DNA of 48,398 bases from an uncultured Bacilli bacterium (GTDB lineage Bacteria > Bacillota_I > Bacilli_A > ML615J-28 > CAG-313), in the NCBI GenBank assembly GCA_944326155.1, contig CALVCV010000010.1, positions 1-48,398 of the forward strand, in the 5' to 3' direction. This document shows positions 30,900 through 48,398 of this stretch, piece after piece (the first letter of the stretch is position 1; each line of letters begins with the position of its first letter). The notes below the pieces were generated by a model that saw only the letters and a program-made list of their open reading frames with translations, ran no database searches and was not told the DNA's origin. The position numbers and the translations under genes were made by a program.

Positions 30900-31091
30900 C
30901 TATGATATTTGTTTTGCTTTAATTAATCTAGCAGAAATTTCATCTTCTGGTTTCAACATAATTCCACCAGCTAAATAGCTTTCTAACTTTTCATAACAAA
31001 TATAATTATTAATATTATATGCTTTAACATATCTGCCTCTAAAATCTGTAATTATGCCATTTTCTTTGGATTTTTTAACTAAATTTATCAA
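30900..31091 (-). pseudogene. Out-of-frame C-terminal HTH end of the retron effector
   Basis: 63 codons open from a TTG at 31091, one frame off the effector gene and overlapping its last 17 bases. There is no ribosome site. If one base is removed from the TTT before AGTTAAAAAATCC, the joined product reads IIRYMNISSNKFDKLVKKSKENG and continues to VKAYNINNYICYEKL. That is a plausible winged-helix end, like the DNA-binding tails of PRTase retron effectors. I therefore read this as the frameshifted tail of the gene at 31075-32049 rather than a separate gene. Confidence 0.5.
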
Positions 31092-32049
31092 ATTTATTTG
31101 AAGATATATTCATATACCGAATAATTGTTTTCTTTTTATATCCACACAACAAAAGCGTTACAAAAAATGGATATTTACTATTTATTTTCACCTCTAGTGA
31201 TTTAAAAAATGATTTAATCCTAAATGATAAATTTCTATCATTTGCCACATCAATATATCCTTGCTTACGTTGAAATAATGAATAAAATCTATTTTTGCAC
31301 CAAAGGCATCCTAATGTATTATTAGGAACAAAATAATTAAATACTATTGTATCTTCAATATTTTTAAATCCATATATGTATTTATTGGGGATGTTAAGGA
31401 ACTCACTAAATTCAATAAATTTCTGACATTCAGTTTTTGATAAACATCCTCTTGTTATAAACTTTGCAGGTCTTATGTTTTCAAAATATTTAATGTCCAA
31501 ATTAAATAAGCTATAATTATTTTTTATTGTATTAAATCTTTCAAATGCATAATTCGTAATAAATATGGGATAAAATAAAATATTAATTTTTCTTGTTAAT
31601 GGTTTTTCTATTTTTTTTAAAATATCATTATGTAATTTATTTAAATATTTTTCAAATGTTGATAAACTTCCTGCATAATCATCAACAATAATTAATTCCA
31701 CACCATGTTTTATTTCATTAATAAAAGTTTGATCAACACTATTTATTTGAAAAATATTTATATTACCTTGTAAAAATGCTAAAAATGCATGGCTTTTATG
31801 AGTTATATTATCTGTAATTAAGGAAAGTATTTTTGTTTTTTTATTAGCCATTGATTCTAAATTAGATCTATATAAATCAATCATATTTTTAAAATTATTT
31901 AAATCATAAAAATCAAGATTTGTTAAAATTTTAATAAGTAATTTTTGATAATCTTTATCAGCAAATTGATTAATATATAAATTAATCGCAATATCAAAAG
32001 ATTTTTGTAATCTAACATCACTCGTCCATTTTTCTATAAAATCATACAT
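31075..32049 (-). CDS. Retron effector: phosphoribosyltransferase-like (PRTase-CE) protein
   Basis: 324 residues. GVELIIVDDYAGSLSTF (about 116-132) matches the PRPP-binding loop of phosphoribosyltransferases (hydrophobic-DD-x-x-G-[ST]). The later VPNNTLGCLWCKNRFYSLFQR (about 243-263) corresponds to the NNTLP..W......LF.R element that I associate with PRTase-CE conflict-system effectors. The N-terminal 110 residues are helical. The C-terminus TIIRYMNISSNKFDKF begins a helix-turn-helix that seems to continue in another frame. The gene starts 3 bases after the reverse transcriptase stop, in the same operon. Retron effectors of this type are thought to be held inactive by the RT-msDNA complex and released on phage attack. 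The family call is from motifs only. Confidence 0.68.
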   Translation of the reverse strand: MYDFIEKWTSDVRLQKSFDIAINLYINQFADKDYQKLLIKILTNLDFYDLNNFKNMIDLYRSNLESMANKKTKILSLITDNITHKSHAFLAFLQGNINIFQINSVDQTFINEIKHGVELIIVDDYAGSLSTFEKYLNKLHNDILKKIEKPLTRKINILFYPIFITNYAFERFNTIKNNYSLFNLDIKYFENIRPAKFITRGCLSKTECQKFIEFSEFLNIPNKYIYGFKNIEDTIVFNYFVPNNTLGCLWCKNRFYSLFQRKQGYIDVANDRNLSFRIKSFFKSLEVKINSKYPFFVTLLLCGYKKKTIIRYMNISSNKFDKFS

Positions 32050-32052
32050 ATT

Positions 32053-32697
32053 CTACTCACCAAATGAACCTTCATATAAATTTAATTCATTAAGCTGTTC
32101 TAAAAACTTCTTGCCTTTTTCAGAATCTACCATTTTAATATAAAAAGCTAGACCATATAAGTGATTCACATAGTCTATATGTTCATTAAATTCAATTCTA
32201 TCTAAATGACTCTCTAAACCATATCTTGATATGTATCTTATAGCATTTTCTAATTCACGAATAATTTTCTTATCAACATTCATTTTTGTATTAACTGTAA
32301 TCCCTGTGACTTTCAGAGATTGGCCATTAACAAATTTTCTATATTTTTCTTGATTTGGTGTAAATCCTTCTTCTGTAATAACCTTATCTATAAAATTTTT
32401 TATATATTCACATCTTGATGTTGACAATTTTTCCTTACTCGATATTGTAATATCATCAGCATACCTTGTATAACTTAAATTTAGTTTTTTGCAAAAGGCT
32501 TCTATTCTATTATCTAGTCTTATACAAACTAAATTTGATAACATTGGACTAGTAGGTGCACCCTGCGGTAAACTATAATCTTTATTAACACACAAATATC
32601 CTAAATATTTAGAAACATTAGGGCCATATCCAAAGTATCTAAATTGTCCTACAACTTTGGGCAATTTAATAGACGGAAAAAAAATCTTTAATATCAA
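32053..32697 (-). pseudogene. Retron reverse transcriptase, C-terminal part (frame 2)
   Basis: 214-codon frame carrying RT motifs 4-7. SLPQGAPTSPMLSNLV is the template-grip region; TRYADDITIS, with the YADD catalytic pair, is also present. LKVTGITVN corresponds to the VTG motif typical of retron RTs, and the C-terminal thumb follows. The first residues, KIFFPSIKLPKV, repeat the junction DIKDFFPSI expected in motif 3. The true protein is therefore produced by joining it to the upstream frame at the T8 tract (32676-32683). Removing one T gives a single 334-residue RT, the usual size. Confidence 0.8.
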
Positions 32698-33058
32698 ACT
32701 TCCTTAAAGTTTTAGCTTCCAAATGAGGAATTGCATTATCAACTATTGATTTACCTCTCATATATCCAATACAACTATTTGGCATATTAAAATTTGACAA
32801 TATTACTCTATTAATTGCTTTTTGAATAAATTTTATTTTGTCATCGGGAATCTCAAGTTTACGAATTCCACCATTTTTTTTAGGAATATTATATTCGTGA
32901 TATAAATTCTTTTTTCGATTATCTGGATATAAATACTTCTTTTCATCTTCAGGGCTTATATCTAAAAGTTCCAATAAATGATTAATAGATTTAATTATAG
33001 GTAAATTAAAACTTTGTAATTTTTTTAAATTACAATTATCACTATCTTTAATAATCAT
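32666..33058 (-). pseudogene. Retron reverse transcriptase, N-terminal part (frame 1)
   Basis: 130 codons from the ATG at 33058, with a GGAG site 9 bases upstream. YNIPKKNGGIRKLEIPDDKIKFIQKAIN is RT motif 1. CIGYMRGKSIVDNAIPH is the motif 2 region, and LRKFDIKDFF holds the first catalytic Asp. The frame then runs into a T8 tract and stops after SVY, while the continuation is one frame away. The gene follows the retron RNA directly. Whether the frame is corrected by slippage, is off in this cell, or is a base-call error is discussed in the findings. Confidence 0.8.
32676..32683 (-). repeat. T8 homopolymer at the retron RT frameshift
   Basis: Eight T on the coding strand inside the codons for DFF. 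Seven would keep the RT in frame (GAT TTT TTT CCG, DFFP). Tracts of this length are prone to replication and transcription slippage. Confidence 0.85.
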
Positions 33059-34764: not shown

Positions 34765-35715
34765 TTATTTTCTGCTATATTTTTCTTTATTTTCATTATT
34801 TGATCTGAATATTTCTTTGATTGATTCATTTTTTTCTTCTTCAGTAAACTCATATTCTAATTGCATATCAATTATTGCTTTAAGAGTTTCATAGTAATCT
34901 TTACTAGTCTCTTCATCCAACTCATGTATACTTACACTTAAAATAGAATATAAACTTTTCATATAATCTCTAATTCTTGGATCTATATAATCCTTAATTT
35001 TATCTATTTTCTCATCCATATGTCCTAAAACAATATCAAGTTTTTTTTGTTTTAAATAGAAACAACCCATCTTCTCAAAGATTCTTCTTAAATATGCATA
35101 TGACCAACATAAAATTTATCAACGTATGACAGATCAGCTTTTTTATAATCTTGATATGCATTTATTTTCTCTAATTGTTTTTTATATTTTTCAAAATCAA
35201 ATCCATGAACATCTATATTAGATGGATATTGTCCAACCTTTATGACTGTAAATTCTCCTAATTCTTGCTGAATCATTATATCCATAAAATAAGAATGTGA
35301 ATTTACATTTATACAATTAAACTTACACGATACCAACCAGCTATTATTAATACACATTTGATCCTGATATATGGATTGACAATTTGAAGATACATTTGAT
35401 TTATCAAAAAGTAGTTCTCTACGCAAACTTACTCCTGTAATATATAGGGGATGCAATTGTAATACAGTGACCATTTGTATAATCCATATAATCACCTTTA
35501 CAATCTAATATTTGATAATCAACTTCAAAGGGATATTCTTTTCCACATTTTATGCATTTTGTTATTAACCTTTTATCAGCTAATCCTAAATAATTAAAAA
35601 AATTGTCTAGTATTTCCTTGTTTAATATATAATTATTTTGGTCATCTTTTTCGAAAATTTTAAATTTCTCTTTCGAATATAATGATACATCATTAAATAA
35701 ATTAGTAATACTCAT
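34765..35715 (-). pseudogene. Twice-frameshifted zinc-ribbon protein gene
   Basis: Three ORFs in two frames make one protein. Part 1 (35715 to about 35430) holds MSITNLFNDVSLYSKEKFKIFEK and a zinc-ribbon-like CIKCGKEYPF, and ends PIYYRSKFA. Part 2 (to 35088) continues as SLRRELLFDKSNVSS to ADLSYVDKFYVGHMHI. Part 3 (to 34765) continues as AYLRRIFEKMGCFYLKQKK to IHELDEETSKDYYETLKAIIDMQLEYE. At the second junction GGTCATATGCATATT would become in-frame GAYAYLRRIFEK if one G were restored. I do not know the family. It is the last gene of the dnd transcript, so it may be an extra component that has decayed. Confidence 0.7.
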
Positions 35716-35742
35716 TTTATTCTTCCATCCTATTAATATTAA

Positions 35743-36123
35743 CTATATCAAATTATCCAAGTTCATAATATTTTTATAAAAATTATTTGGATTATATCTA
35801 TATTCAGCAAATAACAACTTTGCTCCACGATCTAAATGTGCTTTAATATATTTTGGAAAATAATCATCATCATTAAGCCTTTTATTATTTTTAGATATAA
35901 TTAAGGCTTTAAATAATTCATCATATTCTCCTGTAATTGTTTGTCTATTTAATTCCAAACCATCATTGTCAGTTGAAAAATCATATTCATTTAAACATTC
36001 ATTATTATTAATAGATAAAGCAATTGCAATTTTAGCTAGAATAAAAGGTTGTAAATGTATACTATTTCCTAAATCTGCAAATATTGTCATTGTTTCTTTT
36101 GAAGTTTTTAATTTAAAATTCAT
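35743..36123 (-). CDS. dndE: DNA sulfur modification protein DndE
   Basis: 126 residues starting MNFKLKTSKETMTIFADLGNSIHLQPFILAKIAIALSI, the conserved DndE opening. The middle part and the RGAKLLFAEYRYNP end also fit the family. DndE is a small tetrameric protein required for phosphorothioation, reported to bind nicked DNA. An ATG eight codons upstream would precede the AGAGGAG ribosome site, so the start at 36123 is preferred; it leaves one base between dndD and dndE. It is the last intact gene of the dndBCDE operon. Confidence 0.9.
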   Translation of the reverse strand: MNFKLKTSKETMTIFADLGNSIHLQPFILAKIAIALSINNNECLNEYDFSTDNDGLELNRQTITGEYDELFKALIISKNNKRLNDDDYFPKYIKAHLDRGAKLLFAEYRYNPNNFYKNIMNLDNLI

Positions 36124-36124
36124 T

Positions 36125-38176
36125 TTATTCTCCTCTAAAATATTCATTTTGAATAATTAATGTTTCTCCATGATTATCACTATCTAATAAAAACATTTTA
36201 TTAATACTATCATCAATTTGTGCTTTATATTTACCATAAATTTCTGAGTCAGTTGATAAAATGAATATTTGGTTATTAATACCTTTAAAGAATACCTCAA
36301 TAATTCCTTCTTTATGAACTGTATCAATTCTTGCAAATGGGGTATCAATAAAGAACGGTATATCCCTTTTACTTGTTTGTAATACTGCTAAATATATTGA
36401 CATAATATAAACTTGTTTTTCACCATTAGAAAATGGAGACTCAATTTTAAATGGAATTTTAGCAGTTTTAGTTTTACCAGTCAAAACAGACGCAATTTTC
36501 TTGCCATATGTTTTATCAAACAAGTTAATAAACTCTTTGTTTTGTGGATTACTAATATAATTTTCTAATTTTTCTTTATTAAAACTTTCAATTTTGTATG
36601 GTATCAAGTTAATATCTTTATCAATTATAATTCCGTCCACAAAATTGTTTTTGTTAATAATTTTATTAAAAATTTCTATGAACTGCTTTTCTAATAATCT
36701 ACTTTGTCTTTCTATCAACTTTTCTTCTAATAATTCAAATTCAATTAAAGCACGTTCTGAAATATTAGAAACAGATTCATTTTTTAATAATGATTGAATC
36801 TTTTCTTTTAATTTCATATATTCATTTAATTTAGCCTCAGAAGCAAACAATACTTTTTGATGCTCATTTTGTAAAAGCAACAATTCTTTTTCCATTTTTA
36901 ATCTTTCAATTTCTAATTTATTAGTTTCTACTGTAATTGTTGAGTATCCATCGTAAGAGGTACTATTTAATATAGTTCTAATTTTTTTAGTAATTGCTAA
37001 AGACTTATCTACTTCTTTCAAAATTACTAATAACTCTTTTTTATTAAACTTTAATTTATCATGTAATTGATGATTAATTTTATTAAATTCATAATCAGAA
37101 AAGTCAAAAATATTTTCACCTTTATTATGATTATCATAATTTTCTAAAACATTTATAATGCTATTTAAGTTATTTTCTTTTAAATAATTTAAATATTCAG
37201 TACTGGATATAATTTCATGATAATGTTTTACTTTTTGGTTGTTTTTAAATGAATTAAGTTTTGATTCTAATTCAATCAATTCATTGTTAAGAATTATAAA
37301 AGGTAAATAATTATTTGCTATATCTTTTATTCTCTTAGATAATTCTTCTCTTTTTAATTCTTCATAGTCTAACTCTTTATTTAATTTCATCCATTCATCA
37401 ATAGTAACTCCACCACTATTTTTAAAATCCATAATAATTGATTCTTTTTTTGCAGATAATTCATCAATATATTTATTTAATTCTCTTATTTGTCTTTCTA
37501 AATGTCTTTTATATTTAACTATTTCTTCATAATTATTCTTAATTTCGTAATACTCATCAAATACTTTTTTATTATTAGAATTATTTATATTTCTTTTAAA
37601 ATTATCTTTCATTATTGAAAAAGTATCTAAACTATATAATTTTAAAAATGCATCTCGAAAATTTTGTTCACCATTACTTCCTAAAAAGAAATCAGTTATT
37701 TCTTCACCATCAAAAAAATAAAAATTAAACATTGCTGGCGGTATAATTGATAATAAGTATGAATTAAAATCATTCTTTTCTGATTCATCAATTTCTGCAC
37801 CATTCTTTAATACATTTAATTTTTCTGCAAAAGATTTATTTGTTTTATGCCATTCTCTTTTTATTGTATATACATTATCTTCTTTCCCATCGTTAAATAA
37901 TAATTGAATTTCAATATAAGCCAATGAATTATTATTCATTTTTTCTTCATTGTTTATTAAAGTACTTATTATATCATAATATGGTTTACAATTAGCATCA
38001 AATCCCCATATTCTACATCCGTATAAACACGTTTTAATAGCTCTGAAAAAAGTGGTTTTTCCTGCACCATTTTTCCCACCAATTAAGATTATGTGCTTTT
38101 CATTATCATCAATTTCAAAAGCATTCTCATTTTTATATGGGCCTATATTATATAAAGTAATTTTTCTAATCTTCAT
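36125..38176 (-). CDS. dndD: DNA sulfur modification ATPase DndD
   Basis: 683 residues, SMC/RecN-like. ILIGGKNGAGKTTFFRAIKTCLYG (about 30-53) is Walker A. FYFFDGEEITDFFLG (about 150) is the DndD signature, a long coiled coil spans about 200-480, and ESPFSNGEKQVYIMSIYLA with IPFFIDTPFARIDTVHKEGI (about 560-625) forms the ABC signature and Walker B. DndD supplies ATPase activity for sulfur insertion into the DNA backbone, probably by DNA nicking or remodelling. The gene overlaps dndC by 11 bases, with AAAGGAGGG inside dndC. Confidence 0.95.
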   Translation of the reverse strand: MKIRKITLYNIGPYKNENAFEIDDNEKHIILIGGKNGAGKTTFFRAIKTCLYGCRIWGFDANCKPYYDIISTLINNEEKMNNNSLAYIEIQLLFNDGKEDNVYTIKREWHKTNKSFAEKLNVLKNGAEIDESEKNDFNSYLLSIIPPAMFNFYFFDGEEITDFFLGSNGEQNFRDAFLKLYSLDTFSIMKDNFKRNINNSNNKKVFDEYYEIKNNYEEIVKYKRHLERQIRELNKYIDELSAKKESIIMDFKNSGGVTIDEWMKLNKELDYEELKREELSKRIKDIANNYLPFIILNNELIELESKLNSFKNNQKVKHYHEIISSTEYLNYLKENNLNSIINVLENYDNHNKGENIFDFSDYEFNKINHQLHDKLKFNKKELLVILKEVDKSLAITKKIRTILNSTSYDGYSTITVETNKLEIERLKMEKELLLLQNEHQKVLFASEAKLNEYMKLKEKIQSLLKNESVSNISERALIEFELLEEKLIERQSRLLEKQFIEIFNKIINKNNFVDGIIIDKDINLIPYKIESFNKEKLENYISNPQNKEFINLFDKTYGKKIASVLTGKTKTAKIPFKIESPFSNGEKQVYIMSIYLAVLQTSKRDIPFFIDTPFARIDTVHKEGIIEVFFKGINNQIFILSTDSEIYGKYKAQIDDSINKMFLLDSDNHGETLIIQNEYFRGE

Positions 38177-39545
38177 CTGATAGGCCCTCCTTTATTTTAT
38201 TGTAATGTATCCACTCTTGATTTATTATGGAGTCAAACTCTTTTTGTAATTTAGTATTTCTATTATTATATTTATTATTATTTACAGAAACCATAAGTTT
38301 TGAAAGCAACTCAAATGGGACATCAATTTTATGTGCTATATTCTTTATATTATCAATTATGTCATCTTCATACAATTGTTGCTTATATTTATCCCATGGT
38401 AATTTTTCTTCAAAAATTTCAAAGTATAAGTCAACTAAACTTCTTCTAGTTAAATCTCCTTCTAAGTCCCATAAAGTATCTATTATTTTCAACTCATCAA
38501 ATGTTATTAATTCATATTTTGTTTCTTTTTGTAAAGTTAATAATCTTTTTAATATTTCATATCTTGCCCAAAGTGTAAAAGGTCCAAAACCAAAATCTCC
38601 ATTTTTCTTTTGATAAACCTTTCCATTTCGACGTTTATTATCTCTATAATCTGGATTTTGTCTAATACTTACTAACCAGTTTCTAAAATCTCTTAATGGA
38701 ATTAATTCTTTTGCTCCATTATCAATAAATTTTTGTAATGACTTATCTTCTTTTACTATTGTACAACACCAACATCCAAAACGTGAATTTCCTGTTACTG
38801 GAATCTTAGAATTATCAATTTGTCCAACAACACTTTGTTCTTCCCCCATATCCTCGCCTTGATACAAACTAAATAAATATTTCATATCAACACCCCATTG
38901 ACTTTTACCATTATCTTTTAATAAGTATTCCCATACTCTTTCATTTTTAATTTCAGTCAGAGGATTATAAACAAATGCATTTTTAAAATCACTATGTGGT
39001 ACTAAAATTTTTCCTTCGATCTCACGATTAGTAATTGATCTACTTCGTGAGTTACTTTCTGCTTTTCTAACACCAAGTAACAAAATAACTTCACCATATT
39101 TATCAATTAACTTTTGTGTATAATTATTCATTGGATTAATTTTTAATCTATCTGTACACCAGCGAAACCCAGGTGGTTCTGGAGTTGGGTATCCTAAACC
39201 AATAACTAGTGTCCAATATGTTTTTCTTATTTCTGGATATATTATTTCTGCTTTAATGTTACAATGATTATTTTTTGAAAATTCATTTATTTTGTTAGAT
39301 GAAGAATGCATATATTTCTTAATAATTGGATTTTCAACGCCAGTATCTGAACTAACAATATAAATATCTTTAGTTCTACTTTCCTCTGGTATTCTATTTA
39401 TTGTTTCAATAACAAGTGATACTAATAATGATGAGTCTTTTCCACCACTATATCCAATTATCCAAGGTCTATTGTCATGTTGATATACTAATTGCATTTC
39501 CTCAATTACTTGTTCAAATTCTGGAAATTCATTATTTTGTTTCAT
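38166..39545 (-). CDS. dndC: DNA sulfur modification protein DndC (PAPS-reductase fold)
   Basis: 459 residues. IGYSGGKDSSLLVSL (about 32-46) is the PP-loop for ATP hydrolysis. SSDTGVENPIIKKY and GFRWCTDRLKINP are typical of the ATP-sulfurylase/PAPS-reductase fold. FGCWCCTIVKEDKSL (about 256) supplies the cysteine cluster that should bind an iron-sulfur centre. It activates the target and passes sulfur to DNA. The sulfur donor DndA is not in the window, so a chromosomal cysteine desulfurase such as IscS would have to serve, as known in other dnd loci. It overlaps dndB by 14 bases. Confidence 0.95.
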   Translation of the reverse strand: MKQNNEFPEFEQVIEEMQLVYQHDNRPWIIGYSGGKDSSLLVSLVIETINRIPEESRTKDIYIVSSDTGVENPIIKKYMHSSSNKINEFSKNNHCNIKAEIIYPEIRKTYWTLVIGLGYPTPEPPGFRWCTDRLKINPMNNYTQKLIDKYGEVILLLGVRKAESNSRSRSITNREIEGKILVPHSDFKNAFVYNPLTEIKNERVWEYLLKDNGKSQWGVDMKYLFSLYQGEDMGEEQSVVGQIDNSKIPVTGNSRFGCWCCTIVKEDKSLQKFIDNGAKELIPLRDFRNWLVSIRQNPDYRDNKRRNGKVYQKKNGDFGFGPFTLWARYEILKRLLTLQKETKYELITFDELKIIDTLWDLEGDLTRRSLVDLYFEIFEEKLPWDKYKQQLYEDDIIDNIKNIAHKIDVPFELLSKLMVSVNNNKYNNRNTKLQKEFDSIINQEWIHYNKIKEGLSDED

Positions 39546-40590
39546 TTTCTTTTACCTCTTCTTCACGAGATAGTATAATACCTAGTTTTTGCTTAATTAA
39601 ATTTGTCCCCTTAATAATTGCATCTTCATTATTTTGAATTTTACCATTATCTTTAATAATTCTTTTTTGCCATTCAATGTTTGCTCTTGACCAATCAATT
39701 TTTCGTATACCATTTAATAGTTTTAAATCTAATTTTTCTTCATAAAAAAACTTTCCTAATCTACCAAAAATTTGTAACGTAACTGATAATGTTAATATAT
39801 AATCTTCTCTTAAATCACACTTATATAATTGTTTTTCTTGAAGCATTTTAAATTCTTCTATATTGTTTATTAAGGCATTCCAATAACTTAATAAAAATGC
39901 TTTTGTTTTTTCTATATTTATATTTTCATTTTCCTTAATAATTCTTTTATTTGCACGAAGAAAATTAGCCAATGTAAAAAGTTTCATCGAGTTCTTTCCA
40001 AGGGTATCTTTTTCTTTATCAACATATTTATTTAAAAATTGATTATTAGCAATAATGTACTTAACAATATTTGCAAACTCATCTCTGTCATCATATAAAG
40101 TCGACAATGACATTGTTGATTTAACTGCATGTTTATTAAGGTCAGCAAACATTTGTTGTGATCTTTTTAATCCTTCATCTTTGAAGAATACTATTGATAT
40201 AGTCTCATCACCAAGTTCTGGTTTTTCTTTCAATGCTGCTTCTAAAGCTGCTTTTCTATGTTGGCCATCATTTATTAGAAAAACTGCTTGCATATCGACT
40301 TCTAAAATTCCAATATTTTCATCCTTATTATCAGTTTTAAAAACAAATTCTCCATCAATAGAAGCTGATAATGCTGAAAAAACGTAATTTTCTAAATTAT
40401 TCAAAATATAATTTTTCATTTCTGGAATTCTTGTTTCATTAATACATCTTTGTGCACGATACTCAGGAGAAATATATTCATCCTCATTAATAAAAAGTTT
40501 ATTTAATAATTTTATAGGAATCATTGTAATATAGTATTCTCTTTTTGCTTGAACTCCTCTTACTGCTGGGAAATTATAATTAAAACTCAT
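39532..40590 (-). CDS. dndB: DndB, DGQHR-domain regulator of phosphorothioation
   Basis: 352 residues. NYNFPAVRGVQAKREYYITMIPIKLLNKLF is the DndB opening. VFLINDGQHRKAALEAAL (about 113-130) is the DGQHR motif, and MFADLNKHAVKSTMSLSTLYD follows as in DndB. Loss of DndB homologues raises the level of modification elsewhere, and the Salmonella homologue represses its own operon by binding a palindromic site. The ORF extends to a TTG at 40602 that overlaps GGAGGA, so the ATG at 40590 is the likely start. It is the first gene of dndBCDE, behind a strong promoter overlapped by a 42-bp palindrome. Confidence 0.93.
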   Translation of the reverse strand: MSFNYNFPAVRGVQAKREYYITMIPIKLLNKLFINEDEYISPEYRAQRCINETRIPEMKNYILNNLENYVFSALSASIDGEFVFKTDNKDENIGILEVDMQAVFLINDGQHRKAALEAALKEKPELGDETISIVFFKDEGLKRSQQMFADLNKHAVKSTMSLSTLYDDRDEFANIVKYIIANNQFLNKYVDKEKDTLGKNSMKLFTLANFLRANKRIIKENENINIEKTKAFLLSYWNALINNIEEFKMLQEKQLYKCDLREDYILTLSVTLQIFGRLGKFFYEEKLDLKLLNGIRKIDWSRANIEWQKRIIKDNGKIQNNEDAIIKGTNLIKQKLGIILSREEEVKENETK

Positions 40591-40604
40591 GTTCTCCTCC
40601 AAAT

Positions 40605-40646
40605 AAAAATAGTATACGTAAGTATATACTTAAGTATACTATTTTT
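40605..40646. promoter_or_regulatory. 42-bp palindrome at the dndB promoter (candidate operator)
   Basis: AAAAATAGTATAC (40605-40617) and GTATACTATTTTT (40634-40646) are perfect 13-bp arms. The centre TAAGTATATACTTA (40619-40632) is itself a perfect palindrome, so only one position pair (40618/40633) breaks the symmetry. It covers the -10 box and the expected start of the dnd transcript and reaches to 15 bases from the start codon. It could act as operator, as terminator of the upstream operon, or both. Confidence 0.75.
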
Positions 40647-40661
40647 CTGTTATTTTGTCAA
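40633..40661 (-). promoter_or_regulatory. Promoter of dndBCDE
   Basis: TTGACA (40656-40661) and TATACT (40633-40638) are separated by exactly 17 bases on the minus strand, a near-ideal sigma-A promoter. It sits in the 81-base gap between the 188-residue gene and dndB, so dndBCDE can be expressed separately from the upstream module. Confidence 0.85.
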
Positions 40662-40671
40662 ATAAAAGTGT

Positions 40672-41238
40672 TTATTCTAATTTAGAAAATTGATTTATTA
40701 AATCACTTAAATCTTCGTCTTCTTCTAAATCTTCTATTTCAACATCTTCATCTGGTATTTTATTAATATCATAATTATATCCTTCAACTGATGAAGTAAG
40801 AAATTTCTTTAAATTTTCCATCATTTCTACAGGTTCATCACTTGATAGATCTAATAATTTTGTAACACCAAAATTAGCAAATTTAGTCAAAAACTCAAAA
40901 CGATTGAATTTAATATCACAATTGGTATCAAATGCTAGTTTTAATCTATCTTCATCTTTAAATTCTACTAGTTTAGAAGTTAATATAGCAGTTTGAAACA
41001 TAAAATCTAAATCTGAATTATGAGGTTGTAAAACTGTTCTTGGAACATTCAAAGGTTGCTCATAATCATTTTCTATTGTTAAATCATCAAGTTGCTTATC
41101 ATACATAACACCTATAGAAATACTTAATGCATATAAATTGTAAATAGGTTGTGATCTTTGTTGCCAAAAATATTGAAATTTTTCAAAAGTTCTTCTCCAT
41201 ATAGTACCTTTTAAAACTATATCACTTCTTATTTCCAT
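40672..41238 (-). CDS. 188-aa protein of the Dnd-associated module
   Basis: 188 residues. The N-terminus GTIWRRTFEKFQYFWQQRSQPIYNLYALSISIGVMYDKQ is followed by a helical middle (RFEFLTKFANFGVTKLLDLSSDEP) and a strongly acidic tail (about 165-180, EDVEIEDLEEDEDL). It resembles small proteins encoded beside phosphorothioation-linked ATPases, which may be the PbeD-type member, but I cannot confirm the family. It overlaps the SMC-like ATPase gene by 10 bases, with GGAGGG six bases before its ATG, so its synthesis is coupled to that ATPase. Function unknown. Confidence 0.6.
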   Translation of the reverse strand: MEIRSDIVLKGTIWRRTFEKFQYFWQQRSQPIYNLYALSISIGVMYDKQLDDLTIENDYEQPLNVPRTVLQPHNSDLDFMFQTAILTSKLVEFKDEDRLKLAFDTNCDIKFNRFEFLTKFANFGVTKLLDLSSDEPVEMMENLKKFLTSSVEGYNYDINKIPDEDVEIEDLEEDEDLSDLINQFSKLE

Positions 41239-43184
41239 AAATAGCCCTCCTTAATCTCAGCAATGTTTTGTTCCTCATTACTAGTAATAGTATAAACACG
41301 GCCTATATTATTTTCTTGGAAATCATTATGTAAATTATCTTTAGTAAATATGATGATTTGAGGTGCATAATTTGGTAATACATTAATTACCTTTTGACGT
41401 GGTTCATCTCCTAATTTTGAAAAAGGTGCATCTAAAACTAACGGAAATTCCTTATTTTCTAATAATTTTTCACTCTTTAAAACTTTGAAAATACCACCAA
41501 TGTATGCAAATGAAACTGTCGCAAATTGACCTTCAGATTTCGATTCGTCACCATAGCTATCATAAACTTTCAAAGTGAAATCATTATTAATTTCCACAGT
41601 ACGTTTTGCCTCAAGCATTTCATCTAATAATTGTTGAATTGTATCTTGTAATTTTTCACTATATGATTTTGATTTTTCAATTAATAATTGATCAAAATAA
41701 TCTTTTACTTGTTCCATTATAGAAATTTTTAAATCTATAGTCTTGTTAACTTCTAAAGTAGAACTTAGTCTTTCTATTTCTTTTAAAAGTTTATCAACAC
41801 GTAATCCAGCTATTCGTAATTCTCCAGAACATTTTGACGCATCTTCTTTTAAATCCTCTAAAGCTTGTTCTGCCTCTTTTCTTTCATCTACTAATTTTTC
41901 ATATTTTTTATCTTCTTTGATTTTTTCATCAATTTTAGCAATTTCCTCTTCTTCTTTTTGAGCTAATAAAATAAGTTTTGTTACCTCAGAAATATGTTTT
42001 TCTACTTTTTCTCGAGAATATTCTTTTCCCCAATTTTTTGCTATCAAAGTAAAATTATTATATAAATTAGCATATCCATATGGAGGTAATTGACTATACA
42101 ATTTAGTTAATTCTTCTCTTTCTTTATCAGTTATTTTATTACCACATATACATTTTTCTTCTTTTAGTAATGCATCAATTAATGGGACATCAACACCAGG
42201 CAATACTTTTTGCATACTACTTTGTGATTCAATTACTTGTGAAGCCCTTTTGATTGCTGTTGATAAGAAAAACTTTGGAAATGACTCTATCATTGTATCA
42301 CCAAACAAATGGTATTGTTCTTCAACTAACGATAAATAATTTGCTTTAGTATTCTTATGGTATTCTCTCATTTTATTGTATTCTTTTTGAGAATTAGCAC
42401 CGCCTATTAACTCTGATAATTCAGTAATACGGTCTTGTTTTTCTTTAATTTGTCTACTAATTTCATCTAAATTAGCTTGTAAGGAATCCCTCTTTTCAAG
42501 GGCACTTTCATATTGATTTCCTAACGTTTGCAATTCTGTAGATGATCCACTATCAGTTTTTCTTAAAGTCAAAGTCTTTAAAACAGAATTTGAAGTTGTT
42601 GGTGATCCAATAACACTGCTTGCTTTATCATAAATATTTAAATCCAAAATTAAATATAAAGCTTTTTTTAAATTTTTCGCAGAATCTCTTCCTTTCAATT
42701 TTAAATCAGCAATCATACTTTCTCCATCAAAGAAGAAATAATCTGCCAATCCAGAAGGTAAAATTTGCTCTACAAATTCTTCAGGATTATTAATTTTTAT
42801 CCAATCATTACTATCATTTTTCTTAATAATTGAAAATTTTTCATTCAAAAGTTTAATGTCAAATAGAGACTTTTTATATATCCATTCTCTCCTGATTGAA
42901 TATTCCTCATTATCATGAGTAAAATCAATTTTACCAAATACAGAAAATTGACTATTTACTGCACAAGTTTTTTCCATTTCTAAATTATACAACAATTTAT
43001 CATTAGTTGTTTTATTAAATTTTACCTTACCATAAATAATCCATTGGAACAATTGATGAAATGTAGTTTTACCTGCTCCATTATTTCCATATATTATCGT
43101 TGGTTTACCATCAATTGAAAATTCAACAAATCCTCTATTTTTAAAGTTTCTAAAATTTTCATATTCTATACTCTTAATTTTCAT
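41229..43184 (-). CDS. SMC-like ATPase of the Dnd-associated module (DndD relative)
   Basis: 651 residues. Walker A IIYGNNGAGKTTFHQLFQWIIYG (about 31-53) is followed by DYFFFDGESMIADLKLKGRD (about 147), the same FFDGE element as in DndD. Coiled coils interrupted by KCICGNKITDKER (about 340, a CxC that may act as a zinc hook) and Walker B FPLVLDAPFSKLGDEPRQKV (about 590) complete it. It is a second, diverged DndD-type ATPase, likely part of the restriction arm; PbeC of archaeal Dnd systems is a possible counterpart. A TTG two codons upstream is less likely than the ATG at 43184, which has AAGGTGA in front. Confidence 0.8.
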   Translation of the reverse strand: MKIKSIEYENFRNFKNRGFVEFSIDGKPTIIYGNNGAGKTTFHQLFQWIIYGKVKFNKTTNDKLLYNLEMEKTCAVNSQFSVFGKIDFTHDNEEYSIRREWIYKKSLFDIKLLNEKFSIIKKNDSNDWIKINNPEEFVEQILPSGLADYFFFDGESMIADLKLKGRDSAKNLKKALYLILDLNIYDKASSVIGSPTTSNSVLKTLTLRKTDSGSSTELQTLGNQYESALEKRDSLQANLDEISRQIKEKQDRITELSELIGGANSQKEYNKMREYHKNTKANYLSLVEEQYHLFGDTMIESFPKFFLSTAIKRASQVIESQSSMQKVLPGVDVPLIDALLKEEKCICGNKITDKEREELTKLYSQLPPYGYANLYNNFTLIAKNWGKEYSREKVEKHISEVTKLILLAQKEEEEIAKIDEKIKEDKKYEKLVDERKEAEQALEDLKEDASKCSGELRIAGLRVDKLLKEIERLSSTLEVNKTIDLKISIMEQVKDYFDQLLIEKSKSYSEKLQDTIQQLLDEMLEAKRTVEINNDFTLKVYDSYGDESKSEGQFATVSFAYIGGIFKVLKSEKLLENKEFPLVLDAPFSKLGDEPRQKVINVLPNYAPQIIIFTKDNLHNDFQENNIGRVYTITSNEEQNIAEIKEGYLWK

Positions 43185-43344
43185 TTCCAATCACCTTGTC
43201 CAATTCAGCAACAATGCTTTTTACAATGGTTTTATTTACAGTGTTTTGCTTACTAGAATCAAATTGCTCTTTATCATTTTCTTTTACAATTTCTTCTACT
43301 ACTTTAATCATTTTTTCTACTATTTCATTTTGATTATTATTCAT
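43174..43344 (-). CDS. 56-aa protein between helicase and SMC-like ATPase
   Basis: The ORF reads MNNNQNEIVEKMIKVVEEIV, continues KENDKEQFDSSKQNTVNKTI and ends VIGNEN. It starts inside the last codons of the helicase gene (8-base overlap) and ends 11 bases inside the ATPase gene, so it fills the gap exactly and is flanked by coupled starts on both sides. It is charged and predicted helical, with no membrane segment or cysteine. No family recognised. The tight packing argues strongly for a translated gene, and it would fall below many length cut-offs. Confidence 0.65.
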   Translation of the reverse strand: MNNNQNEIVEKMIKVVEEIVKENDKEQFDSSKQNTVNKTIVKSIVAELDKVIGNEN

Positions 43345-45388
43345 CTAAATGATCCTCCACTTCTACTTCTGTATATAATACTATTTCTTCTAATGACAAA
43401 TCATATCTACTTAATAATTCATCAAGTTCTGCTAATTTTTCTTCTCTATTTATCGCTAATTTAGCATATTCATAAAATCTTCTTAATTCTATTTTTGCAA
43501 AATTAAACATTTCAATTTTAGGTAAAACAATTACATCATAAATATTAGCAAATTTTTTATTTGGATATTTTCTTAATATTCTACCACGTCTTTGGACAAA
43601 TTCACGATAATCATCATTACTCGCAAGAATTAAAGCACTTTTAATAGATGGAATATTTATGCCTTCATCTAAGCAACGAATTGCTACTAGTGATGATATT
43701 TCATTATTATTAAACATTTCAACTAATTCCATTCTACGAGACATATTTTCTTGTGCTGTGAATTGACTAGCTTTAATACCTAATTCATCTAGATTATTTT
43801 TTACAAATTGAATATGTCGAAGAATATCTTTTTCAGTTTTTTCACTAAATACTTTCCCATCTCCACAATAAACAACAAAATGATCTTTATCTGGAACTGT
43901 ATTCAACAGATCCTTAATTCGTGTCATTTTTTCTTCTGCCATAGCTATCAATCGAAGTCTAGCTTTTGTTAATTTAATTAGTCTTTCTTTGTCTAAAAGT
44001 ATACCCTCTTTAGAAAAACACCCTATAATTTTACTAGTTAAATCTGCAAATGATTCTTCTTCAGTTTCACTTGCAGCAACATAGATTGGAAAATAATTGT
44101 AATTTACTAAAAATCCTTTTTCTAGTGCATCTTCTATTGGTAAATTAAAAACTTGTCCTCCAAAATATCTAACTAACGCATTACCTTCTTCATTATTTTT
44201 ACCATTAATTGGAGTAGCACTTAATCCTAACATATATTTAAAAATTTGTTTAGTCTCGTCAGTCCTAGTTGTAAATCTATGGGCTTCATCAACAATCAAC
44301 AATTTTTCTTGACTAGACATTTTTAAAATATTTAAAAATCTGTCTGAATAGAAAGATTGAATTGTTGATATTAATATAGTTTGCCTTTTATCATCATATT
44401 TTTGTCCTATAATACTATGTACAGCATCTGAATACCAAGATGGATTCTCTGAAGAAACTAATATTATGTCTGCCTTTGGGAACACTTTTACAACATCTTC
44501 GTGCCATTGCTTAACCAAATGTTTGTATGGTGCCGTTATAACAATTAAGCTCTTATGATCTTCATATAATCTTTTAGCAGAATATATTGCAGTCCATGTT
44601 TTACCTGTACCTGTGGCCATAACATAGAAACCTTTATATCCATTTTCAACCCATTTATCAATTGCATTTTTTTGATAGTCATATAACGTAATAGGTTCTT
44701 GACTTGTTTTTTTTGTTTTAGCTTCTTCTACAGCTTTTAAAATACTTTTTTTAATAGATTCCGTAAATTTGTATACTTCAACATATGGATTAACATTATT
44801 CCATAACGACTCAAATTCATTTATTTCTCCATTGACAACTTCTTCATCACCAAGATCCCAACTTTTTACAACTCTAATTTTTTCATAATTAGTTGAATAT
44901 CCACTAAATGAAGAATTAGCCGAACCATAGAACACTACAGAATTATTATCTTTATCTGTAATTATTCCTAACTTATCATGATATATTCCTATTTCATTTT
45001 TCATTGAAGCAACTTTAATATCTAAAATACCTTTTAAAACCAGTTGGTATAAAATATTTAATCTGTCTTCATCAAATACTTTAAGTTCTTTTTCAAACAC
45101 ATCAAGAAAAGATTGTTCAAGAATTCTTTCTTTATTTTCATATCCTGCTTGTATTGCTACAATATCATCCTCACTTAGATTCGGACTAACTATTAGTTGT
45201 ATTCTACCTCTATTGCTAATAAAAGTTGGTAAAGACTCTAATAGCAAATTAAAAACAGAAGACGAAAAAAATGCTGTTGTTCTTCTATATAAAGTTGCTC
45301 TTTTTAAAGCAGGATTTATTAAATTTTCAACTAAATTATTTTTGCCATGATTAATATAACTACTATTAATATTTAAATCTTTAAGCAT
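43337..45388 (-). CDS. PLD-domain SF2 helicase of the Dnd-associated module
   Basis: 683 residues. The N-terminal third is a phospholipase-D-like nuclease fold: IYHDKLGII (His137, Lys139) and FYGSANSSFSGYS (about 153-165) form an HxK...GSxN half-site. A superfamily 2 helicase follows: MATGTGKTW (about 257-265), DEAH (367-370), LGLSATP (about 388) and the motif VI QRRGRILRKYP. Proteins of this layout cut or unwind DNA in several restriction-like systems. It lies 12 bases after the sigma-like gene with AAAGGAGGACAAA before its ATG. It is the probable nuclease/translocase of the restriction arm. Confidence 0.82.
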   Translation of the reverse strand: MLKDLNINSSYINHGKNNLVENLINPALKRATLYRRTTAFFSSSVFNLLLESLPTFISNRGRIQLIVSPNLSEDDIVAIQAGYENKERILEQSFLDVFEKELKVFDEDRLNILYQLVLKGILDIKVASMKNEIGIYHDKLGIITDKDNNSVVFYGSANSSFSGYSTNYEKIRVVKSWDLGDEEVVNGEINEFESLWNNVNPYVEVYKFTESIKKSILKAVEEAKTKKTSQEPITLYDYQKNAIDKWVENGYKGFYVMATGTGKTWTAIYSAKRLYEDHKSLIVITAPYKHLVKQWHEDVVKVFPKADIILVSSENPSWYSDAVHSIIGQKYDDKRQTILISTIQSFYSDRFLNILKMSSQEKLLIVDEAHRFTTRTDETKQIFKYMLGLSATPINGKNNEEGNALVRYFGGQVFNLPIEDALEKGFLVNYNYFPIYVAASETEEESFADLTSKIIGCFSKEGILLDKERLIKLTKARLRLIAMAEEKMTRIKDLLNTVPDKDHFVVYCGDGKVFSEKTEKDILRHIQFVKNNLDELGIKASQFTAQENMSRRMELVEMFNNNEISSLVAIRCLDEGINIPSIKSALILASNDDYREFVQRRGRILRKYPNKKFANIYDVIVLPKIEMFNFAKIELRRFYEYAKLAINREEKLAELDELLSRYDLSLEEIVLYTEVEVEDHLDE

Positions 45389-45400
45389 TTTGTCCTCCTT

Positions 45401-48055
45401 TTAAAAGTCATCATCTAATAGTTCATCTAAATTAAGCATTTCATCATAATCATCCGTGACTATTTTATGTGATTCTATACTTGCAATATCATCATCATTT
45501 AATTTTTTATTCTTTTTAATAATTACAGGTATTGCATCTTTCATAATTTTACTAGTCGTAATAACATCATATTTATTTGAACTCTTTAATATAGTACTAT
45601 ATAATACCCACTCATTCCATACTATGCCTATGTCAGGTAATTCCCAATAACTAGTAAATAAATATAATGGTTTATAATCATCATTACCTATAAATTTATC
45701 TAATATTTTTTCAAATTTTTCTACATTTAATATGCCATAATTGACTTTAGCAATACTAATTATAACTGTTTTACTTTTGAAAATTATTTTATCAATATAT
45801 TTACTTATATAAATAATATAACTATCTAAATAATATCCAACTTCATTGGCCATTTCTTTTAATTCTTCTAAAGTTACTTCTTCTTTTTCCAAAACTTTAT
45901 TAATCAATAATTCTTCATATGTGATTATATTTACATTTTTATTTGCAATAAATGGACGTTGAAAATTAAACTTATCCTTATACATTTTTTCTATTAAAGC
46001 ATAAAATTGTAAATAATGATTTAAACCAATACGATTAAATAATCCACTTATTTTTCTTTTTATTGTGTCAAACAAAAATTTTGTATGGTGCTGTAATTCA
46101 TCATTTAAGTTTTCTTTTAATAAATCAAATAAATATTTTTTTTCATCATCGGTTATTTTTAATGAATTTATATTAACATAATATCCATTCATATTTAAAA
46201 TGCCTGTTCTTTCTATTACAGATTGAACAACACCTGCTGTTATTCCAGGAAAATATTCTTTCAATTCATCAAAAGTTACTATATGTTCTGAATTAGTGAT
46301 ATATAATTCTATTTCATTATAAATTGAAGATGTTGATGTTTCTAGAATATAGTCACGTGTTATTATATACTTGTCACTAAATGTTCTCTTTAACACTCCT
46401 TGCAAAGAATATCTATTCATAATTCCTATTTCATTAAATTCATCTTCAAAGTTATCATATATTCCTGTAATAGGTATCGCATCTGATTTATAATTAGAAA
46501 CAAAAATTACAATTTTATCTATTAATTGTTTAGGTATTTCTATTAATATTTCATTATAAATTCTTTCCCCACGACCAGAAGGCATGCACGTATTTTGAAT
46601 TATTGCCCTTACAGCACGAAGGCTTTCTGATAAATCATAATTATACTCTTCTTTAGCATATCTTTTTAAATTTTCAATACTTTCATCATCATTTAAATAT
46701 ATGCCATCAGGAAAATATTTTTTCATTATTAATACAACTACTGTACTATTCTTTAATTTATTACGAAATGAATATTTATTATATTTATAATATTTTTGAT
46801 TAATCCAAGACACAAGAAAATTAGTTTCAATTTTTGTATATTGATCTTTAAAATAATCTTCTAACATATTATTTAATTCACATGTTTCAATCATTTCTGG
46901 CAAAGAATTAATATAGTCTATCAATAAACTACGATTTTTTGACTTATAAAAATAAATTTCATCATTTAAACCATAATCTAATAATTTATCATATACTTTT
47001 TTGATAAAAGAAATGCTTATTTCATATTTTTTTAAATCATCTTCTATAAAAAAATTTGTATATCCACAATGCAATAATATCGATCTGCAAAATCTATTAA
47101 AAATTTTACTTTTAGTAAGTCTTTCTAAAGCACGCATTTCGATTTGTCTTACTCTTTCTCTTGTTAAATCGAATTGTTGACCCAATTGTTCTAAAGTCTT
47201 ATTTTCACGATATCTTAAATTTATGACTGCCTCTTCTTTTGGAGTTAGGCTCTTCATGAATAAATCATAATAATACGCAGGAGTGTTCAAATCTATACTT
47301 CTTACTTTTTCATAAATTTTTACAAGAGCTGAGTAATTAATTTTAAATATATCAATGTCATTTATATCATTAATAATTTTAATTCTAGGAATAATTTGTA
47401 TATTATCTTCATCATCTAATAAGTAATCAATAGTTTTCGTTTTTAATTCATTACTAAAAAAGTGTAATCCATTTAATATTTGTCTGTATATTTGTATTTT
47501 TTCATTGTATACAATTATTTCATTAAAATATTGTTGAATAAAATCATAAAATAATTCCAAATTTATTTCACTACCATATATTTTAACACTAGAATCATTA
47601 TAGTTATTTAGAATAAAGTTACTGTTAAAATCAATTTTTAGATCTGTCATAAAAAAACTATTTTCATCTAAAAAATTATTTAATATTACTACTTGAGTTT
47701 TATTTCCTTTCATCTCAAAAACATTTATCAATTGTTTTAAATCATCAATCAACAATTCTATATTAATATAGTTACTCTTAATCTCAACAAAGTTATTTTG
47801 GTAATTTTTTATTACATCACCATGAGAAAAATAGTTAATTGAAAAATATTCATTATTTGAAAATTTAATTCCAAACAAAAAATTCATAGCTAATTTAATA
47901 TCTTCATTATCACAATCAAGTAATTTTTTATTTTCTAAAATTTCTTCTATTTCTTCAGTTGTATATAATTCTATTAGTTCATTATAAATACTCTCAAAAG
48001 TATTATTTAAATTATAATAATTTTTGAAAGTTTGAGTAATCTTTTCAAAGTTCAT
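45401..48055 (-). CDS. 884-aa protein with sigma-70 region 4 domain, Dnd-associated
   Basis: 884 residues. Residues about 268-315 (SLTPKEEAVINLRYRENKTL to RERVRQIEMRALERL) are a clear sigma-70 region 4 helix-turn-helix. No region 2 is visible, so it is not a working sigma factor. The rest is strand- and helix-rich, with further winged-helix-like stretches (for example VTFDELKEYFPGITAGVVQSV near 590). The acidic C-terminus reads EMLNLDELLDDDF. It heads the module upstream of dnd. AAAGGAGC lies about 35 bases before the ATG with an in-frame stop in between, so translation starts without a normal ribosome site. It may recognise DNA for the system; function unknown. Confidence 0.72.
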   Translation of the reverse strand: MNFEKITQTFKNYYNLNNTFESIYNELIELYTTEEIEEILENKKLLDCDNEDIKLAMNFLFGIKFSNNEYFSINYFSHGDVIKNYQNNFVEIKSNYINIELLIDDLKQLINVFEMKGNKTQVVILNNFLDENSFFMTDLKIDFNSNFILNNYNDSSVKIYGSEINLELFYDFIQQYFNEIIVYNEKIQIYRQILNGLHFFSNELKTKTIDYLLDDEDNIQIIPRIKIINDINDIDIFKINYSALVKIYEKVRSIDLNTPAYYYDLFMKSLTPKEEAVINLRYRENKTLEQLGQQFDLTRERVRQIEMRALERLTKSKIFNRFCRSILLHCGYTNFFIEDDLKKYEISISFIKKVYDKLLDYGLNDEIYFYKSKNRSLLIDYINSLPEMIETCELNNMLEDYFKDQYTKIETNFLVSWINQKYYKYNKYSFRNKLKNSTVVVLIMKKYFPDGIYLNDDESIENLKRYAKEEYNYDLSESLRAVRAIIQNTCMPSGRGERIYNEILIEIPKQLIDKIVIFVSNYKSDAIPITGIYDNFEDEFNEIGIMNRYSLQGVLKRTFSDKYIITRDYILETSTSSIYNEIELYITNSEHIVTFDELKEYFPGITAGVVQSVIERTGILNMNGYYVNINSLKITDDEKKYLFDLLKENLNDELQHHTKFLFDTIKRKISGLFNRIGLNHYLQFYALIEKMYKDKFNFQRPFIANKNVNIITYEELLINKVLEKEEVTLEELKEMANEVGYYLDSYIIYISKYIDKIIFKSKTVIISIAKVNYGILNVEKFEKILDKFIGNDDYKPLYLFTSYWELPDIGIVWNEWVLYSTILKSSNKYDVITTSKIMKDAIPVIIKKNKKLNDDDIASIESHKIVTDDYDEMLNLDELLDDDF

Positions 48056-48117
48056 AACTATTTTTTATATTGTTTGAAAATATAATTGCTCCTTTCTCAA
48101 ATTATTATCGTTTTCAT

Positions 48118-48123
48118 ATTATA
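48118..48123 (-). promoter_or_regulatory. -10 candidate for the Dnd-associated module
   Basis: TATAAT on the minus strand, 63 bases before the start at 48055, with only a weak AT-rich -35 (TTTATT) at the right distance. The leader contains AAAGGAGC well upstream of the ATG. Confidence 0.5.
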
Positions 48124-48235
48124 ACATATTTTTAGAAAAAAATAAACTATTTGACAAATATCTTGTTATTTTTCACTAATTTTTATAAAAATTTTATTAA
48201 TCAAAAACTTTTATTTATTATTTTTATAATGTGTT

Positions 48236-48321
48236 TGGTTCGAATCCCATCATCTACCGTTTTACGTTTTCAACTCTGCACAGATTCGAATCCCGTAACT
48301 CCCACCCCATTGGTTCGAATC
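48236..48321 (+). repeat. Three tRNA T-loop-like repeats (candidate att scars)
   Basis: TTCGAATC occurs three times within 86 bases: GGTTCGAATCCCATCATC (48236), AGATTCGAATCCCGTAACTC followed by CCACC (48281), and TGGTTCGAATC (48311). Each looks like the T-loop and, for the first two, the 3' acceptor side of a tRNA. The rest of the tRNA is missing, and the T-stems do not pair well. Integrases that use tRNA 3' ends leave such fragments. The remaining part of the 343-base gap is AT-rich and holds no gene. Confidence 0.6.
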
Positions 48322-48328
48322 TTATAAA

Positions 48329-48398
48329 TGTCAAGTTAAATATCCTCAATTTTGTTCATTTAACTATCCTCAGTTTGTAAAGGTTTAATTTTATCTTT
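48329..48398. mobile_element. Possible IS21-type element end (partial)
   Basis: Starting TGTCAAG at 48329, two repeats of TTAAnTATCCTCAnTTT(T)GT lie 24 bases apart (48336-48355 and 48360-48378). A 5'-TG start and multiple spaced terminal repeats are features of IS21-family ends. The element would continue past the window; no coding part is visible. Confidence 0.4.

Follow-up and report, generated by a model that had tools for sequence, protein, structure and literature searches.

In phosphorothioation systems, self DNA must be modified enough to avoid damage by the cell's own restriction module, and how this balance is struck is little known beyond Salmonella and Streptomyces. In Salmonella enterica Cerro 87, DndB (DptB) binds palindromes in its own promoter, with TACG-N10-CGTA present twice (PMC4507180). 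In the DndCDEA-PbeABCD (PMC6459918) and CxC-ABC (PMC10853773) systems, a PbeA helicase and a PbeC ABC ATPase, together with a small partner, adjoin the dnd genes, and PbeD is described as the cognate of DndE (PMC10853773). The stretch of DNA analysed here (the window, 48,398 nucleotides from an uncultured Bacilli bacterium, contig CALVCV010000010.1) resembles the Salmonella locus in its palindromic dndB promoter and in having dndB as the first gene of dndBCDE, and it shares the three Pbe-type neighbors with the latter systems. Unlike the haloarchaeal systems, which lack dndB, the window has dndB and a palindrome splitting the two modules. We find that this palindrome is a real control element, common to related loci in many gut bacteria.

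On the minus strand, the genes run in the order sigma-70 region 4 protein, PbeA, PbeC, PbeD-like protein, palindrome, dndB, dndC, dndD and dndE. The upstream module is headed by an 884-aa protein (45401-48055), followed by a PbeA-like helicase with a PLD nuclease domain (43337-45388, by family assignment) and a PbeC-like ABC ATPase (41229-43190), which contains CICG as in the CxC type. The last gene of the module (40672-41238) encodes a 188-aa protein that gave no family match; by its position and its relatives it is PbeD-like, the small partner of PbeC. With PbeA and PbeC homologues adjoining the dnd genes, the upstream genes qualify as a PbeABCD-type module. The 884-aa protein has sigma-70 region 4 as its sole recognised domain and is not among the described PbeABCD proteins; it is possibly a regulator or an effector. 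Downstream, the identity of dndB (39532-40590) given in an earlier note on this DNA is confirmed by the family models TIGR03233 and PF14072, and its likely start is the ATG at 40590 behind a GGAGG rather than a TTG further upstream. The genes dndC (38166-39545), dndD (36125-38176) and dndE (35743-36147) were named by family assignment. A type III-A retron adjoins the dnd locus on the same strand (31075-33058), with a reverse transcriptase divided between two frames (32666-33058 and 32053-32697) and a PRTase-CE effector (31075-32049); a disruption, a programmed frameshift or an assembly error may lie behind the division. The host genome comprises 1.44 Mb in 37 contigs. Because DndB occurs in only 2 of 395 genomes of the host's class (and in none of the four other genomes of its genus) and the closest relatives found carry, for the most part, the labels of Clostridia and other gut bacteria, the dnd locus was probably acquired.

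The palindrome spans 42 bp (40605-40646; AAAAATAGTATACTTAAGTATATACTTACGTATACTATTTTT on the minus strand), consists of an operator core and outer arms, and is conserved in relatives. It separates the stop codon of the 188-aa gene, which lies 24 bp ahead of its 12-nt left outer arm, from the dndB ATG. The 20 of 21 symmetric pairs claimed in the earlier note are confirmed and stand above the best value of 17 of 21 in 20 shuffles of the full window that preserved dinucleotides, and the second-best even palindrome of this length within the window pairs at 16 of 21. The dndB promoter, on the minus strand, is formed by the -35 element TTGACA (40656-40661) and the -10 element TATACT (40633-40638) with a 17-bp spacer. 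It scores 11/12, the top of 110 promoter-like matches in 35500-48398. The total of these matches is not above chance expectation, so the promoter call rests on position and conservation. The -10 lies inside the palindrome, as does the predicted transcription start at about 40625-40629, in agreement with the claimed overlap. The TACGTA noticed in the left arm is present in that arm only, and the Salmonella-type TACG-N10-CGTA offered as its analogue is absent from the window's dndB promoter.

For comparison, dndB loci were drawn from genome contigs, GTDB genomes and phage records; a second draw from the same bacterial family yielded identical genomes again, and a DndB search of viral contigs found three distant loci only. 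The search for the palindrome upstream of dndB homologues that the note had proposed located the core at the same promoter position in relatives. In the window, the core (40615-40636, minus strand) contains two ACTTA(A/C)GTA-type half-sites (TACTTAAGTATATACTTACGTA) and is the putative DndB binding site. It is found at the dndB promoter in 28 non-identical loci, namely the window and 27 others with DndB proteins 48-77% identical, and additionally, in half-size form, in L085. In most related loci the ACTTA(A/C)GTA halves are inverted over 2-3 bp and the promoter reads TTGAC(A/G/T)-N16-18-TATACT, and in nearly all loci a TATACT-type -10 lies within the core. The columns of the core alignment are mostly invariant or nearly so. 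At the variable A/C column of ACTTA(A/C)GT, both halves usually change together (columns 18 and 23), as would be expected if one protein reads both. The C-type relatives show a TACG-N6-CGTA spacing, and many relatives, those of A-type, carry no CG (ACTTAAGT halves). The window core is atypical in joining one C-type and one A-type half; its second half-site, of C-type, stands in direct rather than inverted order, and this is its single mismatch. A strict core pattern matched exactly once, beside dndB, in 21 of 27 genomes, versus no match for a reversed-pattern control. At up to three mismatches, four further genomes (G396, G398, G403 and G405) hold one core site, with one control hit, in G403, and the window genome holds a single site, at dndB, with none for the control. 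In G1364 (locus L115), the core has a longer centre and one changed base. The pbe promoter contains no core, the genome's only site at this threshold being that of dndB, and control of pbe by the same operator was therefore rejected on sequence grounds.

The outer arms behave differently from the core, in that their sequence is free and their pairing is kept. In the window, the 5' arm of the putative stem (40636-40646, minus strand) pairs with the 3' arm (40605-40615, minus strand; ATACTATTTTT, then ATTTG), which ends in a T run. The paired bases are TAG/CTA in the window, GC/GC in L010, CGC/GCG in L012, CCCCC/GGGGG in L014 of [Clostridium] asparagiforme DSM 15981, ACACCC/GGGTGT in L102 and GGAT/ATCC in L103. 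At offsets 4-8, 115 of 140 positions form Watson-Crick pairs within species. Exchanging right arms among species lowers this to 64.2 +/- 5.4, and none of 20,000 swaps reached 115 pairs; the result is unchanged with anchors picked by core symmetry alone. When changes at these offsets are placed on the DndB tree by parsimony, about 27 are compensatory double changes, whereas swaps average 4.4 (maximum 12); the count is approximate, as this tree may differ from that of the palindrome where modules were swapped. The covariation score, from an alignment that omits the central bases between the halves, is 0.362 versus 0.143 in shuffled and 0.07-0.16 in slid alignments. Outer positions 4-7 (alignment columns 6-9) each hold several bases with pairing retained. 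That the arms vary in sequence yet still pair suggests a hairpin of nucleic acid, not contacts with a protein. Two loci, L011 and L009, have weak outer arms despite a same-strand gene upstream.

If the whole palindrome were an extended DndB site, with arm symmetry serving protein binding, the strong conservation of the core and the palindromic promoter sites bound by DndB homologues (PMC4507180) would be accounted for. A protein reading fixed bases would not, however, leave positions 4-7 varied with their pairing intact, and loci L121 and L124 have near-identical DndB N-termini yet different arms. We regard a purely protein-binding palindrome as unlikely.

The core stays with dndB behind unrelated upstream genes. 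These encode PbeD-like proteins, the C-terminal part of DndH (found by scan in L117 and by plain similarity in L085, L105, L121, L126 and L131), a 219-228-aa family and a 465-476-aa family that both gave no match, and, in L108, a type IV restriction-like protein. As the core is constant behind such different genes, it belongs to dndB. Moreover, TACG..CGTA occurs within 120 bp upstream in 40 of 78 distant dndB genes versus 6.2 expected by shuffling, a set in which Streptomyces and its kin make up a large share, so that the cases are non-independent. The palindrome lies in the promoter of a genuine dndB, and its site is conserved with dndB and restricted to it. Because the core recurs on the same promoter, once per genome, behind unrelated modules, it is very likely the DndB operator, as judged from sequence comparison. 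Given the DndB footprints reported in Salmonella (PMC4507180), autoregulation by DndB is likely, and the simplest reading of the core. Since it lacks TACG-N10-CGTA, the window site is classed as DndB-operator-like rather than Salmonella-type. The autorepressor site proposed in the earlier note is therefore partly supported, the core being conserved, single and tied to dndB; the Salmonella motif did not match, and the outer-arm stem and T run had been overlooked. The operator reading is likely right, and the palindrome is better supported than the sequence alone had allowed.

A different host or module protein might read the core, with the terminator and promoter otherwise as described here. 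DndB binding in this clade is deduced from sequence, and DndB has also been suggested to act as a nuclease or NTPase (PMC10853773). Against another binder, the site tracks dndB across several unrelated modules, once per genome, and the excess of TACG..CGTA upstream of distant dndB genes again ties such sites to dndB; we consider this explanation quite unlikely. The AlphaFold model of DndB (mean pLDDT 88.5, pTM 0.60) gave no Foldseek match at E<=0.001, and a sequence search of the PDB with DndB gave no match. In a second structural comparison, the N-terminal domain of the model was most similar to PadC, Noc, ParB and KorB (Z 5.7-7.2), which is consistent with the published placement of DndB in the ParB superfamily (PMC10853773).

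Several other sites were noticed during the survey. Seven proteobacterial loci (L030, L031, L032, L040, L042, L044 and L048) carry a different inverted repeat, of the type TTTGTATGT..ACAAACA, in the dndB promoter; DndB subfamilies may read different sites. Seven loci (L016, L017, L022, L047, L082, L109 and L110) have a short TACGTACGTA box that lacks long arms and lies downstream of the -10, ahead of the start codon; in most of them, no gene on the same strand is found close upstream of dndB. In two IMG/VR phage contigs (L089:4588-4607 and L090:70-89), an exact copy of the core ACTTACGTATATACGTAAGT is flanked by an endolysin-like gene on one side and an integrase on the other, with no dndB in the sequence stretch examined; a decoy operator, an attachment site and chance are the candidates. 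About 22 Vibrio phage records (H29-H50) encode a DndB/DGQHR-like protein of 27-31% identity.

The features of the outer arms resemble those of an intrinsic terminator. On the dndB strand, RNA of the palindrome is predicted to fold into a hairpin of -16.8 kcal/mol (z -5.3) whose stem ends in UUUUUAUUU. The stem-loop shows compensatory changes, and a T run follows it directly (TTTTTATTT in the window). Averaged over the loci, the longest run of T behind the stem is 4.6 (range 2-8). At right offsets 8-10, T is present in 24, 24 and 23 of 29 loci, and A at the corresponding left offsets in 19, 15 and 11; summed over the flanks, T on the right is more frequent than A on the left in 13 loci and less frequent in 12. 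Given the short T runs in some loci and the common left A runs, composition alone leaves the direction undecided. A terminator scan requiring GC pairs found none at the window palindrome. The window stem is AT-rich, unlike the GC-rich stem typical of intrinsic terminators, though such a stem is not universal in AT-rich genomes; GC is present in the outer stem of several relatives (L014, L102 and L104). In 28 of the 29 loci, the left arm follows the end of a same-strand gene at a distance of 10-71 bp. The exception is L108, where the upstream gene ends 99 bp away with another hairpin between; there the core is present, and the outer arms and T run are absent. In the arms, G-U pairs outnumber A-C pairs by 7 to 2 (P about 0.05-0.08 in swaps), which is only suggestive as a sign of the folded strand. 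Taken together with the position behind the upstream module, the outer arms and T run would form an intrinsic terminator for that module, overlapping the operator and promoter. Quasi-palindrome correction by template switching, a mutational process that acts on imperfect inverted repeats in general, would likewise give matched double changes in the arms. It is very unlikely to be the explanation here, as it accounts neither for the T run nor for the constant position behind a tandem gene, nor for the arm loss in L108 with another hairpin upstream.

Collectively, the palindrome is probably a compact boundary element, in which a DndB operator core is overlapped by the arms of an intrinsic terminator. 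DndB would bind the ACTTA(A/C)GTA half-sites of the core and cover the -10 and the start site, repressing dndBCDE, and in this way the modification genes would set their own level. The outer arms and T run would terminate RNA arriving from the upstream pbe module, so that dndBCDE would not be driven by read-through from that module. RNA made from the dndB promoter would start within the palindrome, without the 5' arm, so it could not form the stem and would escape; the terminator would act only on upstream RNA. The comparisons point to this arrangement as explaining the separation of the two modules more directly than an operator alone. We found no report of a terminator within a dndB operator in the open-access literature; what is new in the finding is the putative terminator that overlaps the operator.

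Loci L121 and L124 offer a view of how such an element may behave when modules change. Their dndB DNA is 92% identical, whereas the gene directly upstream is DndH-like in one and PbeD-like in the other. The two sequences cease to resemble each other at the palindrome's 3' edge; they share the same core, each with its own matched arms. This pair, a single case, is consistent with a boundary element that marks the point of module exchange. More tentatively, the palindrome may be a portable connector that links interchangeable restriction modules to a constant dndBCDE, with terminator, operator and promoter in about 45 bp insulating the self-regulated modification genes from whichever module stands upstream, and with bound DndB also acting as a roadblock that tightens the insulation. 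The element offers a testable rule for a broad Bacillota set, in which DndB would regulate the modification genes, its own included, and an overlapping terminator would shield them from the restriction operon. If true, it would help explain how unrelated restriction modules are exchanged before the same dnd operon.

The comparison with known control elements brings out what is particular to this site. In Salmonella, one DndB footprint reaches the start site, covering -14 to +4 on one strand (PMC4507180). In contrast to the two Salmonella sites, the window has a single site with ACTTA(A/C)GTA halves, 2-3 bp apart in most relatives; the C-type relatives have TACG-N6-CGTA and the A-type relatives no CG, and here the site is fused to terminator-like outer arms with the -10 inside it. 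The R repeat of Streptomyces lividans (PMC6186775) is likewise an inverted repeat at the dndB -10. It was reported as a positive element, which counts against an operator with overlapping terminator in the window, and no terminator role was described for it. The likeness to ParB, Noc and KorB, which act on palindromic sites, concerns the modelled N-terminal domain of DndB only, at Z below 8. Restriction-modification controller proteins, such as the Kpn2I C protein, which serves as a roadblock to elongation (PMC6237814), provide a parallel: there too, a regulator encoded by the module itself acts at an operator to adjust modification relative to restriction. The C protein belongs to another protein family, and in the window the hairpin, rather than a bound protein, would halt the polymerase.
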